64,000 nucleotides of DNA from Desulfobacca sp. (GCA_020725545.1 DYEV01000009.1:62001-126000), one strand, 5' to 3'; shown: positions 7,898 through 44,838, numbered from the stretch's first letter. Notes: generated from the sequence alone by a model not told the origin. Program-made: numbers and translations.

Positions 7898-10150
7898 TTA
7901 ATTTTCAGGGAAAACCGTACCCCGCTGATATTGCCGCATAATCCTAGCAACATGGGCCAATTCGGGGGCCTGGGCGAGGTCTTCCAAGGGTAAAGGCAGC
8001 TTCAACCGCCAATTGGGATACTCGTCTTTCGTGCCGGGGAGATTCTGTTGCTCCAGCCATGCGAAGATGTCTTCCAGACTCAGGAGGACTAGGCGGCAGG
8101 GCGTTTCGGCCAGATGGGCAATAATGCCCCATTTGACCGACTCGGGCAGATCATCTTGGTCTAAGATAGTCATGGCAGCTTCAGGGCTTAGCCAGCCTTT
8201 ATTCGTTAGCAAGGCCACGATGGCGGCTTTGATCTGGCGGCGTTCCCGGAAGGCTTGGGCCGCGGCCTGATCGTGGGGGAACAGGTGCAAGTCCTGCCGC
8301 ACCAGGATATCCCGGCCCTGCCAGAAACCGGCCAGGGTTGGCAGGTCATGGGTGGTAATGGCCGCCAGGGCCTGTTCCGGGTATTGGTCAGCGGGTCGAC
8401 AGGAGCCGTCCCCCTGGAACTCAAAATAGAACAGGCGGGTGGAAAAAACGTGCAGCGCGGCCAATTGTTCCCGGATCCAGGGGGCCACGGTGCCCAAATC
8501 CTCGCCGATTACGAGGGTTTGCTGCCGGGCGCTTTCCAGGGCTAATATTTTCAGCATCTCAGCCGCGGGATAGCGCACATAGGCCCCCTGCGCCGCCGAA
8601 GCCCCCCGGGGGATCCAATAGAGACGGAAGAAGCCCATGACGTGGTCAATGCGCAGGGCGCCGCCGGGCAGGCAGTTGTGGCGCAAGACATCGATGAGAT
8701 AACGATACCCCTGGTTTCGGAGAGCCTGGGGGGCAAGGGGGACCAGATGCCAGTTCTGGCCCAACGGACTGAAATCATCCGGGGGGGCGCCGATGTCCAC
8801 GGCTTGGGCAAAGAGGTCCTGGTGCCGCCAGGCGTCAAAACCCCCCGGATTGACCCCCACGGCCAGATCCAGATATAACCCCACCGCCAGCCGCTCCTCT
8901 TGGGCCAGCCGTTGGCTGGCCTGCAGTTGTCCGGCCATTAGCCATTGGGCATAGGCATGGCCTAGGATCTGTTGCCGGCACTCCTGCTGAAATGCTGCCA
9001 CCGTTGGACCGGCGGGATTATGGTAGGCGCCGGGCCAATCCTGCCAGTTTATATAAGGGCGCTGCTGTTCTTGCCAATACTCGGCCAGGGCTAGAAAAGT
9101 GGCAAAATCCTGTAAAAGGTCGCCTTGTTGGGCCAAAAACCCCGCAAATTCCTGGCCTCGGGCGGTCCGGGGAGCCTCGGGCCAGCCATGCTGCTCCAGG
9201 AAAGTGTCAAAGAGTTGGGCCAATATCCCCTGTTTGAGATGGGCCACGGCCGCATAGTTGACGTGCCGGCCCTGGCGCAAGGCCGTAAGCTGGGTCTGGA
9301 TGGCCAAGCCGGCCAGATATTCCTGAATGCGCGGATTTGTCGCCAACTCTGGCACCTGTTCAAGATCCAGATAAAGCGGATCGGGGAAACAACGGCTGGT
9401 GGGATAGTAAGGGCTAATGCTCTCCGTCAGCGCGGAGCCGAGATGGTGCAGGGGATTGAGACCGATGAGATCGGCGTTAAACTCTCGGGCCATATGTACC
9501 AGGCGCTGGAGATCCCCGCAATCGCCGATGCCCCAATTACGGCGGCTGGCAAGGGCGTAGAGGGGCAGATACAGGCCCCAGAGACGCTGCTGCCTCAGAA
9601 TCTCCGGCACGTATACCTGTGGCGGGGCCAGTACCAGCAGCATCCGGCCCTGGCGCGTCTCGGCCCCGGTCTGGACGTCGATATGCAGATGATAATAGCC
9701 CATGGCCAGATCGGGCGGCAGCGGCAGGGACGCCCGGCCATAGGTGCCACTGTCGAAACGACGGATTTCCGCCAGCGGCAGGGGACCGTGAACCTGCTCC
9801 TGATGACAACGCTGCCCCTGTTCGTCGAGCAATTCCCAGGCAATGTTCAGATCGGCCGGCCAGGCTTCTCCTTGGAGCGGCAGATAAAGATTCCAGACAG
9901 CCGGTAATTGGGACGTTGAGAGGGCGAGGACCGGCTCCACCAGCGCCGACCAAGGCCATTGGCGGCGGCGGGCCACTTCCAGCCGCAGCTCGTCGAAATG
10001 TTGGCAACGGCAGCCCATGGCCGTTAGGAGGCTTTCCTGAATATCCGGCCCAGTGACGTGCAGGTTGCCGGCGACATCGTAATACTCGGGCTCAATGCCA
10101 CACAAGGCTGACAGTTCTGCCAATAACTCTTCTTTCGTTTCTGAGGTCAT
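7898..10150 (-). CDS. malQ: 4-alpha-glucanotransferase (amylomaltase)
   Basis: MalQ (GH77) transfers alpha-1,4-glucan segments between oligosaccharides and releases glucose; here it would shape the maltodextrins used by TreY/TreZ. The 750-residue length fits the long E. coli-like type with an N-terminal beta domain (residues about 1-140). Catalytic motifs: LRIDHVMGFFRLYWIPRG with the nucleophile Asp, VIGEDLGTVAPWI with the acid Glu, and ITTHDLPTLAGFWQGRD. The ATG at 10150 (MTSETKEELLAELSAL) follows AGAAGGGAG; an in-frame GTG at 10285 would add 45 low-complexity residues. It is the first gene of the minus-strand glucan cluster. Confidence 0.95.
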   Translation of the reverse strand: MTSETKEELLAELSALCGIEPEYYDVAGNLHVTGPDIQESLLTAMGCRCQHFDELRLEVARRRQWPWSALVEPVLALSTSQLPAVWNLYLPLQGEAWPADLNIAWELLDEQGQRCHQEQVHGPLPLAEIRRFDSGTYGRASLPLPPDLAMGYYHLHIDVQTGAETRQGRMLLVLAPPQVYVPEILRQQRLWGLYLPLYALASRRNWGIGDCGDLQRLVHMAREFNADLIGLNPLHHLGSALTESISPYYPTSRCFPDPLYLDLEQVPELATNPRIQEYLAGLAIQTQLTALRQGRHVNYAAVAHLKQGILAQLFDTFLEQHGWPEAPRTARGQEFAGFLAQQGDLLQDFATFLALAEYWQEQQRPYINWQDWPGAYHNPAGPTVAAFQQECRQQILGHAYAQWLMAGQLQASQRLAQEERLAVGLYLDLAVGVNPGGFDAWRHQDLFAQAVDIGAPPDDFSPLGQNWHLVPLAPQALRNQGYRYLIDVLRHNCLPGGALRIDHVMGFFRLYWIPRGASAAQGAYVRYPAAEMLKILALESARQQTLVIGEDLGTVAPWIREQLAALHVFSTRLFYFEFQGDGSCRPADQYPEQALAAITTHDLPTLAGFWQGRDILVRQDLHLFPHDQAAAQAFRERRQIKAAIVALLTNKGWLSPEAAMTILDQDDLPESVKWGIIAHLAETPCRLVLLSLEDIFAWLEQQNLPGTKDEYPNWRLKLPLPLEDLAQAPELAHVARIMRQYQRGTVFPEN

Positions 10151-40817: not shown

Positions 40818-40910
40818 GGCCGCGCTAGATAGTAAAAGGGAGAGGGGGCCGGGGTATATGACTTCCTGCCCCCTCTTCCACACCCTTGCCCCCAACCCTG
40901 GTATTTATTG

Positions 40911-40938
40911 GAAACCAGAAACCGGAAACCAGAGACTG
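40911..40938. repeat. heptanucleotide tract abutting the ahbC start codon
   Basis: GAAACCA, GAAACCG, GAAACCA and GAGACTG run in perfect 7-bp register and end immediately before the ATG at 40939. There is no Shine-Dalgarno sequence other than what the repeats supply. Confidence 0.85.
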
Positions 40939-42129
40939 ATGATTGGTATTTCGAAACTCTATTGCGGCGCCGTGGAGGCCTCGGACGTCCTGCGCTACGG
41001 CCGCCACTCCAGCCGGCTGCCGTCCCATCTGCTGCAATTTTCCCAGGATAAAAAGCCGGTGGTGGTCTGGAACCTGACCCGGCGGTGTAACCTGAAGTGC
41101 GTGCACTGCTATGCCCAGGCAACGGCGACTAGGCCCGAGGGCGAGCTTTCCTTGGACCAGGGTCTGGCCGTCTTGGAGGATTTAAAGGCCTTTGGGGTGC
41201 CAGTGGTGCTCTTCTCCGGCGGGGAACCCCTCATGCACCCCCATCTTTTGACTTTGGTGGAACGGGCCGTGACCCTGGGGATGCGGGCGGTGATCTCCAC
41301 CAACGGCACCCTCATCGACCGGCAGATGGCGGCGCGGTTAAAAGACTTCGGCCTGTCGTATGTGGGCATCAGCCTGGATGGGACCGAGGCCACCCATGAC
41401 CGCTTCCGGGGGCTGCCAGGAGCCTTTGCCGCGGCCATGGCCGGGGTGGAGAACTGCCAGGAGGCCGGCATCAAGGTGGGCCTGCGCTTTACCATTAATA
41501 AACACAATTACCAGGAAATCCCGGCTATCTTTGATCTTCTGGAAGAGCGGGACATCCCCCGGGTCTGTTTTTATCATCTGGTCTATGCCGGCCGGGGCAG
41601 CCGGCTGGTGGAGGCGGCCTTGAGCCACGGCGAGACCCGGGCAGTGGTGGACCTGATCATCGACCGCACCGCGGCTCTCTTTGTCCGGGGCAAACCCAAG
41701 GAAGTCCTGACGGTGGACAACCACGCGGACGGGCCCTACATCTACCTGCGCCTGCGCCGGGAAAAAAATCCCCGAGCCCCAGAAGTCCTGGAGTTGCTGC
41801 GCATGAACGAAGGGAACAATTCGGGCCGGGGCATCGGTTGCATCAGTTGGGATGGGGCGGTACATGCCGACCAATTCTGGCGGCATTACTCCTTCGGCAA
41901 TGTGCAGGAGCGGCCCTTCAGCGAAATCTGGACCGACCTGAGCAATCCCCTCATGGCCAGACTCAAGGACAAGAAGCGCTACGTCACCGGCCGCTGCGCC
42001 ACCTGCCGTTGGCTGGACGTCTGCGGCGGCAATTTCCGGGTGCGGGCCGAGGCCCTGACCGGCGATTTGTGGGCCCCGGATCCGGACTGTTATCTGACGG
42101 ACACGGAAATCTCGGCCCAGGAAGAATAG
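40939..42129 (+). CDS. ahbC: 12,18-didecarboxysiroheme deacetylase, radical SAM
   Basis: AhbC removes the acetate side chains of didecarboxysiroheme to give iron-coproporphyrin III in the alternative, siroheme-dependent heme pathway of sulfate reducers and archaea. The 396-residue protein starts MIGISKLYCGAVEASDVLRY, typical of AhbC, with radical SAM cysteines C50, C54 and C57 (CNLKCVHC), SGGEPLMHP for SAM binding, and a SPASM-like C-terminal region with GCISWDG and CATCRWLDVCGGN for auxiliary clusters. Other ahb genes are not adjacent. The ATG follows a 7-bp repeat tract instead of a clear ribosome site. Confidence 0.9.
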   Translation: MIGISKLYCGAVEASDVLRYGRHSSRLPSHLLQFSQDKKPVVVWNLTRRCNLKCVHCYAQATATRPEGELSLDQGLAVLEDLKAFGVPVVLFSGGEPLMHPHLLTLVERAVTLGMRAVISTNGTLIDRQMAARLKDFGLSYVGISLDGTEATHDRFRGLPGAFAAAMAGVENCQEAGIKVGLRFTINKHNYQEIPAIFDLLEERDIPRVCFYHLVYAGRGSRLVEAALSHGETRAVVDLIIDRTAALFVRGKPKEVLTVDNHADGPYIYLRLRREKNPRAPEVLELLRMNEGNNSGRGIGCISWDGAVHADQFWRHYSFGNVQERPFSEIWTDLSNPLMARLKDKKRYVTGRCATCRWLDVCGGNFRVRAEALTGDLWAPDPDCYLTDTEISAQEE

Positions 42130-42219: not shown

Positions 42220-42249
42220 ATGAGTGCATCTGATCGCATCACCTTATGA
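42220..42249 (+). pseudogene. remnant of a DUF433-type antitoxin start
   Basis: The ten codons ATG to TGA read MSASDRITL. This matches the usual opening of DUF433 antitoxins (DRITLNPEVMGGKPCIRG), but the next codon is a stop and its last bases overlap the DUF5615 toxin ATG. The body of the antitoxin appears to have been deleted precisely between its ninth codon and the toxin start. The reading is short, so the identity rests on the motif and on its partner. Confidence 0.5.
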
Positions 42250-42521
42250 GATTCCTGGCGGATATGGGAATCTCACCGCAAACGGTGAAGTTTTTACAGC
42301 AGTTGGGGCATCCGGCCACTCATCGCCAGCAGGAAAGTCTGGAAAGACTCAATGATGCCCAAACCTTAGCCAAAGCCTGTCACGAAGGTAGTATTCTCCT
42401 CACGCGTGACCTTGGTTTCGGCGATCTGTCGGCAGCCGGTGCAGCTTATTGGCCCAGCGTCATTATTTTCCGCTTTCGGTATATGCGCCCGGATAAGGAG
42501 GAGAAGCTGCTACTGCCATGA
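42246..42521 (+). CDS. DUF5615 PIN-like toxin, C-terminally short
   Basis: A 91-residue Mut7-C/PIN-like protein normally paired with a DUF433 antitoxin. It begins MRFLADMGISPQTVKFLQQL with the first acidic residue, and has ILLTRDLGFGDL and WPSVIIFRFRYMRPD, the typical core. Relatives usually run to about 110-120 residues, so roughly the last 25 are missing. The antitoxin is reduced to nine codons upstream, so the locus is probably inactive. ATG at 42246 overlaps the remnant stop. Confidence 0.75.
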   Translation: MRFLADMGISPQTVKFLQQLGHPATHRQQESLERLNDAQTLAKACHEGSILLTRDLGFGDLSAAGAAYWPSVIIFRFRYMRPDKEEKLLLP

Positions 42522-42596: not shown

Positions 42597-42815
42597 ATGC
42601 TCACCCCCGAAGAATTCCGCACCGGCCAGCACAGCATTCCGTTAAACCTAGCAGAGGAGCTGCCGGAGTGCTGCAGCCGTTGCCGTTTTTTGATTTTCGA
42701 GGAATTTACTGTCTGTTTCATTGACGCCCCTTTTTATTACCAATGCGCCTACAGTTGGACGGAGAAAGCACCGGACAGCCTGCCGCCCTGTTTGGCCGAA
42801 GACTCAGAGGCTTGA
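42597..42815 (+). CDS. small cysteine-rich protein of unknown function
   Basis: A 72-residue soluble protein with six Cys: ECCSRCRFLIFEEFTVC, YQCAYSW and PPCLAE. The spacing suggests a zinc- or cluster-binding knuckle. GAGGACAACGGCC stands before the ATG at 42597, and the frame has native codon use. I do not recognise a named family. It lies between the DUF5615 locus and the cobalamin-riboswitch promoter, which begins 47 bp after its stop, so it is probably not part of the cbp transcript. Confidence 0.65.
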   Translation: MLTPEEFRTGQHSIPLNLAEELPECCSRCRFLIFEEFTVCFIDAPFYYQCAYSWTEKAPDSLPPCLAEDSEA

Positions 42816-42861
42816 ATTTCCAGCGGTTTTTGTGGCAGCCGACGAAGGGGCCAATTTTTTC

Positions 42862-42890
42862 TTGACAAAGTCGTCTTTTTGGACAAAATA
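42862..42890 (+). promoter_or_regulatory. predicted sigma-70 promoter of the cbpAB transcript
   Basis: A perfect TTGACA, a 17-bp spacer and AAAATA. The transcript would start near 42897, five bases before the paired P1 stem of the riboswitch. Confidence 0.65.
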
Positions 42891-42901
42891 AATGCCGATA
42901 T

Positions 42902-43058
42902 CAATAAGCATCCCGGAACACGGTGCAAATCCGTGGCGGTCCCGCCGCTGTCATCGGGGACGGGTTGATCATGGGGAAACCCGGTCACTGTGAAGGCCCA
43001 CCTTCATGGGAAGGCTGATCAATCCGGTTGAGCCGAGAGCCAGAAGACCTGCTTATTG
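42902..43058 (+). promoter_or_regulatory. cobalamin riboswitch aptamer
   Basis: The core reads ACACGGTGCAAATCCGTGG followed by CGGTCCCGCCGCTGT and, 80 nt later, GAGCCAGAAGACCTGC, the B12-box region of the adenosylcobalamin/cobalamin riboswitch class. The outer stem pairs perfectly: CAATAAGCA (42902-42910) with TGCTTATTG (43050-43058), which fixes the aptamer ends. An intrinsic terminator follows 26 nt later, so high cobalamin probably ends transcription before cbpA. It is the only riboswitch seen in the window. Confidence 0.92.
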
Positions 43059-43084
43059 AACTATCGAGAACTGCTGATGGTAAA

Positions 43085-43118
43085 GGGAGTTCCGCTCTAG
43101 GGCGGGATTCCCTTTTTT
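43085..43118 (+). terminator. intrinsic terminator, riboswitch expression platform
   Basis: GGGAGTTCCGC (43085-43095) pairs with GCGGGATTCCC (43102-43112) over 11 bp with two G-T pairs, followed by TTTTTT. It lies between the aptamer and the cbpA ribosome site, 39 bp before the ATG. Confidence 0.85.
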
Positions 43119-43157
43119 ATTGTCAGCAGGCACCATTAACCCAAAGGAGGCGACAGT

Positions 43158-43286
43158 ATGAAAAAGGCCCAAAACACCCAAAAAACCCAGAAACCGGTCA
43201 AACCCATCGGCTTCCGGTACAGCTGCAACCTGAACGGCAGCAATACCGGCCTGTCCCACTACATCCTGTTGGACAAGAAGAGCTGA
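43158..43286 (+). CDS. cbpA: modified-peptide precursor, CbpA-like
   Basis: A 42-residue peptide gene preceded by AAAGGAGGCGACAGT, a very strong ribosome site. The N-terminal half is Lys/Gln/Pro-rich (MKKAQNTQKTQKPVKP), as expected of a leader, and the C-terminal half IGFRYSCNLNGSNTGLSHYI is Gly/Asn/Ser-rich with one Cys, as expected of a core. The radical SAM enzyme downstream and cobalamin riboswitch upstream match the CbpA/CbpB pair predicted by Haft and colleagues for peptides under cobalamin-riboswitch control. What is modified (Cys23, Asn, Tyr or Ser residues) and what the product does are unknown. Confidence 0.85.
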   Translation: MKKAQNTQKTQKPVKPIGFRYSCNLNGSNTGLSHYILLDKKS

Positions 43287-43305
43287 GGGAAGGCCAGCGA
43301 ACCGG

Positions 43306-43323
43306 CGGGGGCTGCGGCCCCCG
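43306..43323 (+). other. hairpin between cbpA and cbpB
   Basis: CGGGGGC-TGCG-GCCCCCG forms a 7-bp GC-only stem 20 nt after the cbpA stop. Without a T-run it could protect the cbpA message 3' end or partly block read-through, giving more precursor than maturase. Confidence 0.5.
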
Positions 43324-43424
43324 TGGTCAGTGGTCAGTGGTCAGTGGCCGGTGAATGGATAAGCCAATCTTTTGCGGCTTACGCTTTGGGGCTCACTTCT
43401 CACCGTTTTCGGCTCACTGCTCAC
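43324..43424. repeat. two heptanucleotide tracts upstream of cbpB
   Basis: TGGTCAG three times, then TGGCCGG and TGAATGG (43324-43358); and in another phase GGCTTAC, GCTTTGG, GGCTCAC, TTCTCAC, CGTTTTC, GGCTCAC, TGCTCAC (43376-43424). The second tract ends 28 bp before the cbpB GTG. Confidence 0.75.
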
Positions 43425-43452
43425 AAATTATCAAAAAAGCGAGGCTAAGAAC

Positions 43453-44838
43453 GTGCTGTCACTTTATCCCCACGGGGCTGCAATCAATATGGGCACGGGC
43501 CCCCGTTTTGATCTGTTGGACATCGGCCATGCGAAGTATGTGGCAGTGGTGGAGGCGGACACCGCCTTCTGGACCCTGGTTCCCCGGGAGCAGGCCGTGG
43601 ACTTGGTGCTGGGGACGGCTCTGCCCCAGGAATTTGCCGATCGGTATGAACGCTTTCAGACCGAGATGCAGGCCCTGCGCTTCGGCCTGACGCCCTCGGC
43701 GGTGTATTTCAATCCCACGGAGCGCTGCAACCTCAATTGCCCCTATTGCTACCTGCCTGAGGATATGCGGCGGGCCGGGGTGGATATGGCGGCAGCCGAC
43801 CTGTTTCGGGCCCTGGAGATTCTGGGGGAATATTTCCAGTCCACCCTGCCCGAGGGCTCGGTGCGGCCCCAGATCATCTTCCATGGCAGCGAACCCCTGT
43901 TGCAGCGGGAGGTTATTTTTGCCGCCATGGAGAAATACGGCGACCGTTTTCGCTTTGGCATCCAGACCAATGCCACCCTCTTGGACGACGAGGCTTTAGG
44001 ATTTATCTGGGAGCGGCAGATCAGTCTGGGAATTTCCCTGGACGCTCACCTGGCCGAAATCAACGACCAGACTCGGCGGACTTGGGGACAAAAAGGCGTT
44101 TTTGGCCAGGTGAGCCAGGTCTTGACGAAACTGGCCGGCTACCCTCATTACAGCGTCATGTGTACCGTGACCAAGGCTAACGTTGGCCATCTTGTTGACA
44201 TCGTTGACTTTTTCCATGGCGAGCAGGTCAGGGTGGCCATGCTCAATCCGGTCCGCTGTACCCAGGCCGGTGGCCGCTTGGCCAAGCCGGCGGATGACGT
44301 GTTGGCCCGGCAGTTTACCGCGGCCCTGGACCGGGCCGGGGAGCTGTATGACCAGACCGGCCGGCGCCTGGTCCTGGCCAATTTTGCCAATATCCTTATC
44401 GGTATCGTGGCGCCCACGGCCCGGCGGCTGATGTGCGACATCTCTCCCTGCGGCGGCGGCCGCTGTTTCTTTGCGGTGGCGGCCACCGGCGATCTCTTCC
44501 CGTGCAGCGAATTCATCGGCCTGCCGGATTTTAAAGGCGGCAATGTCTTTGTGGACGACATCCCCGCGGTCCTGGCTTCGCCCCAGTTCCGGCGGGTGAG
44601 CCAACGGCGGGTGGAGGACATTGCCCCCTGCGCCAGCTGCGCCATCCGACATTTCTGCGGCTCGCCCTGCCCCGCGGAAGTCTATACCACCAGCGGCACC
44701 ATGCACGCCCCGGCGCCCTATTGCGATTTCTATGTGGAGCAGGTCAAATATGCCTTCCGGGTCATCGCTGACAACCGGTTGGACGCGTTCTTATGGGAAG
44801 GCTGGCATGAGGGGACGGAAAAGATCTTTGATTTTTAA
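43453..44838 (+). CDS. cbpB: peptide-modifying radical SAM/SPASM enzyme, CbpB-like
   Basis: A 461-residue radical SAM protein. The SAM-cluster cysteines are C92, C96 and C99 (CNLNCPYC), and HGSEPLLQ occupies the GGEP position. The N-terminal 85 residues precede the barrel and may bind the peptide leader. The SPASM region carries SPCGGGRCFFAVAATGDLFPC and later CASCAIRHFCGSPCPAEV and APYCDFYVEQ, enough Cys for two auxiliary [4Fe-4S] clusters, as in sactipeptide and thioether or epimerase maturases. The GTG at 43453 follows GAGGCTAAGAAC; upstream in-frame codons translate the repeat tract. With the short peptide gene 167 bp upstream and the riboswitch it forms a B12-controlled RiPP unit. The reaction is unknown. 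Confidence 0.85.
   Translation: MLSLYPHGAAINMGTGPRFDLLDIGHAKYVAVVEADTAFWTLVPREQAVDLVLGTALPQEFADRYERFQTEMQALRFGLTPSAVYFNPTERCNLNCPYCYLPEDMRRAGVDMAAADLFRALEILGEYFQSTLPEGSVRPQIIFHGSEPLLQREVIFAAMEKYGDRFRFGIQTNATLLDDEALGFIWERQISLGISLDAHLAEINDQTRRTWGQKGVFGQVSQVLTKLAGYPHYSVMCTVTKANVGHLVDIVDFFHGEQVRVAMLNPVRCTQAGGRLAKPADDVLARQFTAALDRAGELYDQTGRRLVLANFANILIGIVAPTARRLMCDISPCGGGRCFFAVAATGDLFPCSEFIGLPDFKGGNVFVDDIPAVLASPQFRRVSQRRVEDIAPCASCAIRHFCGSPCPAEVYTTSGTMHAPAPYCDFYVEQVKYAFRVIADNRLDAFLWEGWHEGTEKIFDF

Follow-up and report, generated by a model that had tools for sequence, protein, structure and literature searches.

The window, a 64,000-nucleotide stretch of Desulfobacca sp. DNA that sits in a 2.94-Mb genome, carries on its plus strand a cobalamin riboswitch followed by a short peptide gene, cbpA, and a radical SAM/SPASM maturase gene, cbpB (Table 1; positions are counted from the first letter of the window). 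The unit lies downstream of ahbC (40858-42129, over the TIGR04546 cut-off) and two small ORFs. An earlier note on this DNA had read the locus as a B12-riboswitch-controlled radical SAM peptide system of the CbpA/CbpB type, and our analysis supports that reading: the TTGACA promoter, the cobalamin aptamer, the perfectly paired outer stem, the 42-codon peptide gene with its ribosome site, and a radical SAM protein with both CNLNCPYC and SPASM cysteines were all recovered, the aptamer by the Rfam model and the two proteins by NCBIfam models over their curated cut-offs. The intrinsic terminator is also present with its T run, but its stem has 15 pairs instead of the 11 claimed. We regard the membership of cbpAB in this family and its linkage to the riboswitch as virtually certain. 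Of the two ORFs between ahbC and the riboswitch, the one at 42246-42521 is a DUF5615/PIN-like small gene and the one at 42597-42815 encodes a Cys-containing protein of 72 aa without a family.

Table 1 Features of the riboswitch-cbpA-cbpB unit, with positions in the window
Feature	Position	Strand	Support
Sigma-70-like promoter, TTGACA-16-CAAAAT	42862-42889	+	10/12 matches, 0.2 expected in shuffles; consensus match only
Cobalamin riboswitch aptamer	42896-43066 (RF00174 match 42851-43070)	+	72 bits vs gathering 31.5, E 8.5e-16; predicted fold
P1 outer stem, 5' arm TCAATAAGC	42901-42909	+	Read from sequence; pairing in relatives
P1 outer stem, 3' arm GCTTATTGA	43051-43059	+	Read from sequence; pairing in relatives
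Hairpin GAACT/AGTTC, candidate P13/antiterminator, competing with terminator 5' arm	43068-43092	+	Single-sequence prediction only
Intrinsic terminator, 15-bp stem, loop TCTA, T tract	43082-43121 (stem-loop 43082-43115)	+	Equivalents in 58/59 relatives
Shine-Dalgarno AAAGGAGG of cbpA, 7 nt upstream of ORF	43143-43150	+	Direct reading
cbpA, 42-aa peptide precursor	43158-43286	+	TIGR04164, 43.2 bits vs cut-off 35, E 2e-11
CbpA conserved core R20-x2-C23-x7-G31-L-S-H34-Y35	43215-43262	+	Peptide comparison
cbpA-cbpB intergenic stretch, GC-rich hairpin GGGGGCTGCGGCCCCC, without T-tract terminator	43287-43452	+	Direct reading, fold
cbpB, 461-aa radical SAM/SPASM maturase	43453-44838	+	TIGR04163, 656.8 bits vs cut-off 375, E 1.3e-197
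Radical SAM motif CNLNCPYC (CxxxCxxC) codons	43726-43749	+	Direct reading, alignment

RF00174 is the sole Rfam match at gathering level within the window. The first ~45 positions of the match overlie the promoter, and the transcribed aptamer therefore more likely starts at about 42896. Its outer stem, P1, comprises nine perfect pairs and ~14 pairs in the predicted fold. The P1 sequence varies among loci and is mostly still paired (for example, CCGGACGGCA/TGCCGTCCGG and AGGTTTCCAGCA/TGCTGGAAACCT), with a mean longest stem of 8.2 pairs against 6.1 in shuffled sequences, a modest excess. Between the aptamer and cbpA, a terminator hairpin (≤ -9 kcal/mol, followed by a T run) was found in 58 of 59 loci, compared with 5.4 in mononucleotide shuffles. 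The riboswitch of cbpAB is very probably an OFF switch, because an aptamer joined to a terminator has a precedent in a reporter study in which corrinoid repressed 38 of 86 cobalamin riboswitch reporters, 37 of those 38 having a predicted terminator (PMC9600662). Termination caused by corrinoid is also to be expected from the window's genome, where cbiMNQO and the cbiA operon likewise have an aptamer with a terminator in front of them. This genome contains four other RF00174 riboswitches, each with a terminator downstream, and their targets, named by eye, are cbiMNQO, a cbiA-to-cobQ operon, an operon with a TonB receptor, a CbiK-like gene and uptake genes, and, for the last, no clear gene. By analogy, cbpAB would be on at low cobalamin. 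The predicted folds were not decisive for the polarity, as the 43068-43092 hairpin, which competes with the terminator, could belong to either ligand state. The element thus resembles the terminator-type cobalamin riboswitches of RF00174 in coupling an aptamer to an intrinsic terminator, whereas the gene controlled here is that of a modified peptide and not one for B12 synthesis, uptake or an isozyme.

To follow the unit beyond the window, we scanned 84,980 GTDB species genomes, in which two short motifs alone gave 366 relatives, and retained 80 loci. A covariance model was built from 18 riboswitches of related loci, so that its E-values are not independent; Rfam's own model agrees with it on the loci given to it. 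With the covariance model, 60 of the 80 loci showed a riboswitch no further than 700 nt 5' of cbpA (median gap 126 nt), the chance expectation being ~6e-4 per locus as judged from the riboswitch density in the window's genome. Among the remaining twenty, eleven place cbpAB within or next to cobalamin genes (L041, L050, L072, L074, L083, L093, L095, L101, L103, L104 and L113), six are cut by contig ends (L054, L055, L068, L077, L084 and L107), and in three (L056, L079 and L085) neither a riboswitch nor B12 neighbours were found. Where the head of an operon that embeds cbpAB is visible, it carries a riboswitch (L050 and L103, and weakly L072). The full-length cbpB loci examined among 99 related genomes have an Rfam riboswitch 5' of cbpA wherever the upstream sequence suffices; the sole locus lacking one, L020, begins 22 nt before the peptide gene. 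Rfam microRNA-family matches in the relatives were dismissed as below the gathering score.

The whole architecture recurs across phyla, in agreement with the expectation that the peptide gene is kept in relatives. TIGR04163 exceeds its cut-off in 25 of the 99 related genomes and TIGR04164 matches in 26, and each full-length cbpB examined among them has a peptide gene 5' of it. In the window and 77 of the 80 GTDB loci, the peptide gene is 5' of cbpB and co-oriented with it (75 GTDB peptides identified by motif and two, L083 and L091, by eye), while L054, L077 and L084 are cut by a contig end. With phyla roughly grouped from the record titles, the GTDB loci span at least seven: Desulfobacterota-type deltaproteobacteria, Planctomycetota, Omnitrophota, Chloroflexota, Verrucomicrobiota/Kiritimatiellota, Firmicutes and Nitrospirota. 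Two carriers are cultured, Desulfacinum hydrothermale DSM 13146 and D. infernum DSM 9756. In the CbpB tree, the window's protein is closest to that of an uncultured Desulfobacca sp. (86% identity) and to those of other Desulfobaccales-like MAGs, and the phyla are intermixed with strong support, suggesting lateral transfer. The stretch between cbpA and cbpB holds further features in places: in the window, TCAGTGG heptamer repeats (43320-43350) adjoin the GC-rich hairpin, and in one relative an Acido-Lenti-1 RNA match (L006:1237-1281, minus strand; 46.2 bits, gathering 37) lies between the two genes.

The peptides of 100 loci, some common to both sets, gave 78 distinct sequences of 26-49 residues, and all 78 fit R-x2-C-x(n)-GL[SA]HY with n = 5, 6 or 7. 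The conservation of GLxHY is partly selected because it was the search motif; R and C lie outside the search motif. A single Cys is present in 72 of the 78. Two further peptides found by eye, in L083 (about 9758-9865) and L091 (about 1458-1565), end in GLSHF, and therefore the His is invariant and the Tyr is not. Of the core expected in the earlier note, FRYSCNLNGS plus GLSHY, the R, the C and the G, L and H of GLSHY are kept, but NLNGS varies, the Ser can be Ala and the Tyr can be Phe. Between the window and locus L009, cbpA differs by five amino-acid changes, all outside the R-to-Y core, and five synonymous changes. The N-terminus of CbpA is Lys-rich, and no signal sequence is evident in the peptide by eye. 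Each of the 22 aligned CbpAs matches TIGR04164 and no other model. A translated attenuator or a chance ORF was ruled out by this match together with the core kept in 80 peptides across phyla.

CbpB matches PF04055 (47.9 bits) and PF13186 (27.3 bits), both over cut-off, as well as TIGR04085. Its best start is the GTG at 43453, which has GAGG upstream; the 488-aa TTG ORF from 43372 is unlikely in comparison. The predicted structure (pLDDT 90, pTM 0.90) has CteB (TM 0.68-0.75), anSME and ChlB as its nearest solved folds. No RRE/PqqD-like domain was matched by Pfam in CbpB, and the N-terminal ~80 residues, for which the model is moderate (pLDDT 77.5), had no PDB match at E ≤ 0.001. It is highly likely that CbpB modifies CbpA. 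Among the other NCBIfam models, PapB (NF047865) and DynA score best, and CbpB stays below the maturase cut-offs of the SCIFF/ranthipeptide systems (TIGR03974, 95.6 against 425 bits; NF047865, 125.1 against 340). In the CteA/CteB pair of the SCIFF ranthipeptides (PDB 5wgg/5why), as in cbpAB, a short peptide adjoins a radical SAM/SPASM maturase and is broadly conserved, unlike a bacteriocin. However, CbpA has one Cys where SCIFF has six, and the SCIFF definition includes no riboswitch. CbpB shares the SPASM cysteines with CteB and adds Cys328 (invariant) and Cys338 (≥90%) of protein P0003, which have no counterpart in the CteB alignment and are possible ligands of an extra cluster or of the substrate. 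CbpA also differs from the substrates of the PapB system in that it has a single Cys and is no Cys-Asp repeat peptide.

We compared the neighbours of cbpAB across phyla, and every clearly identified family present in at least two phyla and at least four loci is a cobalamin gene; in this table, one ABC-ATPase cluster is mixed and another cluster is an antisense artefact. HMM searches of representatives confirmed CobU, CobT, CobS, CobD-CobQ, CbiB, CbiA/CobB, CbiM, CbiQ, CbiC, BtuR, CbiD, a BtuF-type binding protein, an FecCD permease, a TonB receptor and a Diphthami_syn_2 protein, with a CobC-like protein (TIGR03162) below cut-off; CbiX, CbiN, CbiG, CbiJ and the CbiE/F/H/L methyltransferases are identifications made by eye. 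L050, L095 and L101 share the order cobA/btuR, cbiA, cbiC, cbpA, cbpB, and in L050 and L095 cobalt-uptake genes come next. No dedicated exporter, peptidase, protease or immunity gene recurs beside cbpAB in this table. In two Omnitrophota, an Asn-synthase-like (PF00733) ATPase gene adjoins cbpAB (L041:3977-4924 and L103:8836-9756).

Of the 27 cbp+ relatives, 25 have CbiD, against 26 of the 72 cbp- ones (Fisher p 2.4e-7 overall, uncorrected for relatedness; G022 and G024 entered the 27 through a peptide match or a partial cbpB), the association having p 0.007 within the order and 0.07 outside it, with the lineages related. In the genomes reached through other loci, CbiD is present in 28 of 41; of the 13 without it, many are incomplete MAGs, and five Omnitrophota are consistent, a CbiM-family transporter being present in three of the five. 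The complete Omnitrophota chromosome CP070837 (L103, G133) has no CbiD and no CbiM, and its best CobB/CbiA match is 35 bits against a cut-off of 261. Its cbpAB sits in an operon-like run of a riboswitch, cobU, cobT, cobS, cbiB, cobD, cbpAB, btuF/C/D-like genes and a TonB receptor, and we read this host as salvage-only. Three cbp+ MAGs (G101, G115 and G117) likewise gave no over-cut-off match to CbiD, CbiA or CbiM. The place of cbpAB in a salvage and uptake operon without CbiD, CbiA and CbiM weakens a role in cobalt insertion or on the corrin ring. In the window's genome itself, BluB is matched only below cut-off.

From this context, we propose that CbpA is a B12-regulon peptide that is matured by CbpB and used in the cell for corrinoid uptake, salvage or handling, a whole reading that we hold tentatively, as quite possible but short of probable. 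Corrinoid binding by the aptamer would cause termination, and cbpA and cbpB would be expressed when cobalamin is low. CbpB would then perform SAM-radical chemistry on CbpA, most likely forming a thioether that links the conserved Cys with a residue within GLSHY or close to it, since CbpB most resembles ranthipeptide maturases in family and fold and the conserved core has a single Cys. The mature peptide may stay in the cell, given the lack of a recurring dedicated exporter or peptidase, and might help to acquire, salvage or hand over corrinoids with the invariant His, together with the Cys and Arg, as its working residues. This last step, suggested by the gene context, is about as tentative as the reading as a whole. 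Shared regulation and operon membership tie the pair to B12; they do not by themselves make CbpA a corrinoid binder. A more specific version, in which CbpA is a cytoplasmic corrinoid-binding helper whose Cys-closed macrocycle presents the invariant His to the corrinoid cobalt and which, under short supply, carries imported or salvaged corrinoid on to adenosylation or to enzymes, is speculative and rather unlikely; to our knowledge, no RiPP has such a role.

The main rival is that the modified peptide, or a small molecule derived from it, is a B12-sparing cofactor that replaces cobalamin or serves a B12-independent enzyme at low cobalamin. PQQ and mycofactocin derive from peptides and are made with radical SAM/SPASM maturases, Tyr being the source residue in both, and B12-independent isozymes, too, are typically under riboswitch control. 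Like those systems, cbpAB combines a short, strongly conserved peptide with a SPASM maturase and is predicted to give a non-antibiotic product. In contrast to them, it has no peptidase or finishing enzymes nearby, and the recurrent neighbours are genes of cobalamin synthesis, salvage and uptake with no recurring partner enzyme. The exchange of Tyr for Phe in L083 and L091 also separates CbpA from the Tyr-derived cofactors and weakens the candidate of a Tyr-derived cofactor or phenolic lower ligand. We therefore think the cofactor doubtful, and scavenging or handling of corrinoids fits the salvage-only operon somewhat better than substituting for them.

A metallophore or chaperone that takes Co(II) for uptake or for a cobalt chelatase would explain the conserved His and Cys, the cbiM-cbiN-cbiQ or CbiX-like genes adjoining cbpAB in L050, L072, L074 and L095, and the presence of CbiD in most cbp+ relatives. 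Such a cobalt-handling peptide is nevertheless improbable given CP070837, which carries cbpAB and lacks CbiD, CbiA and CbiM, and the three cbp+ MAGs that gave no over-cut-off match to any of them, with no recurrent dedicated exporter and no signal peptide evident by eye. That the two-gene system occurs in operons with the late-step genes CobU, CobT, CobS, CbiB and CobQ could instead point to a regulatory peptide. Its target would be a B12-consuming enzyme that it inhibits or re-routes in times of scarcity, or else an enzyme of late cobamide assembly. No neighbour has the specificity expected of such a target, and we consider this reading quite improbable. CbpB belongs to the same broad class as the maturases of the SCIFF ranthipeptides, whose link to quorum sensing in clostridia is cited in PMC8326336, and a secreted signal or an antimicrobial peptide, as with other radical SAM RiPPs, might be imagined. 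It is very improbable here because exporter, protease and immunity genes do not recur, cbpAB is co-regulated with B12 genes, and one nearly invariant core is kept in at least seven phyla, unlike in a diversifying bacteriocin.

The pair was already known in silico because NCBIfam catalogues it (TIGR04164/TIGR04163); both proteins here exceed the curated cut-offs in the same gene order, and we found no difference that would exclude membership. Our literature search found no paper with TIGR04163, TIGR04164 or the cobopep name, and the product and function of the family are undescribed in the papers searched. The present analysis contributes the cross-phylum operon context, the salvage-only host, the statistics on terminators and the peptides with Phe in place of Tyr, although others may have mentioned them before. 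If the product does act in corrinoid metabolism, it would be an overlooked component of the B12 regulon in hundreds of species of mostly uncultured anaerobes. The conserved context makes the function of the CbpA family testable, with cultured hosts, a predicted inducing condition and the defined residues R20, C23 and H34.

The strongest cobalamin riboswitch in the window's genome (126.5 bits; L116:6149-6326, G000 C32:42148-42325) has no obvious B12 target. Downstream of it lie two terminators and then an HU/IHF-like gene and a possible tRNA, and it is possibly an orphan or of an sRNA type. In L087, L094 and L102, two cobalamin riboswitches stand back to back, one for cbpAB and the other for a divergent cobalamin operon.
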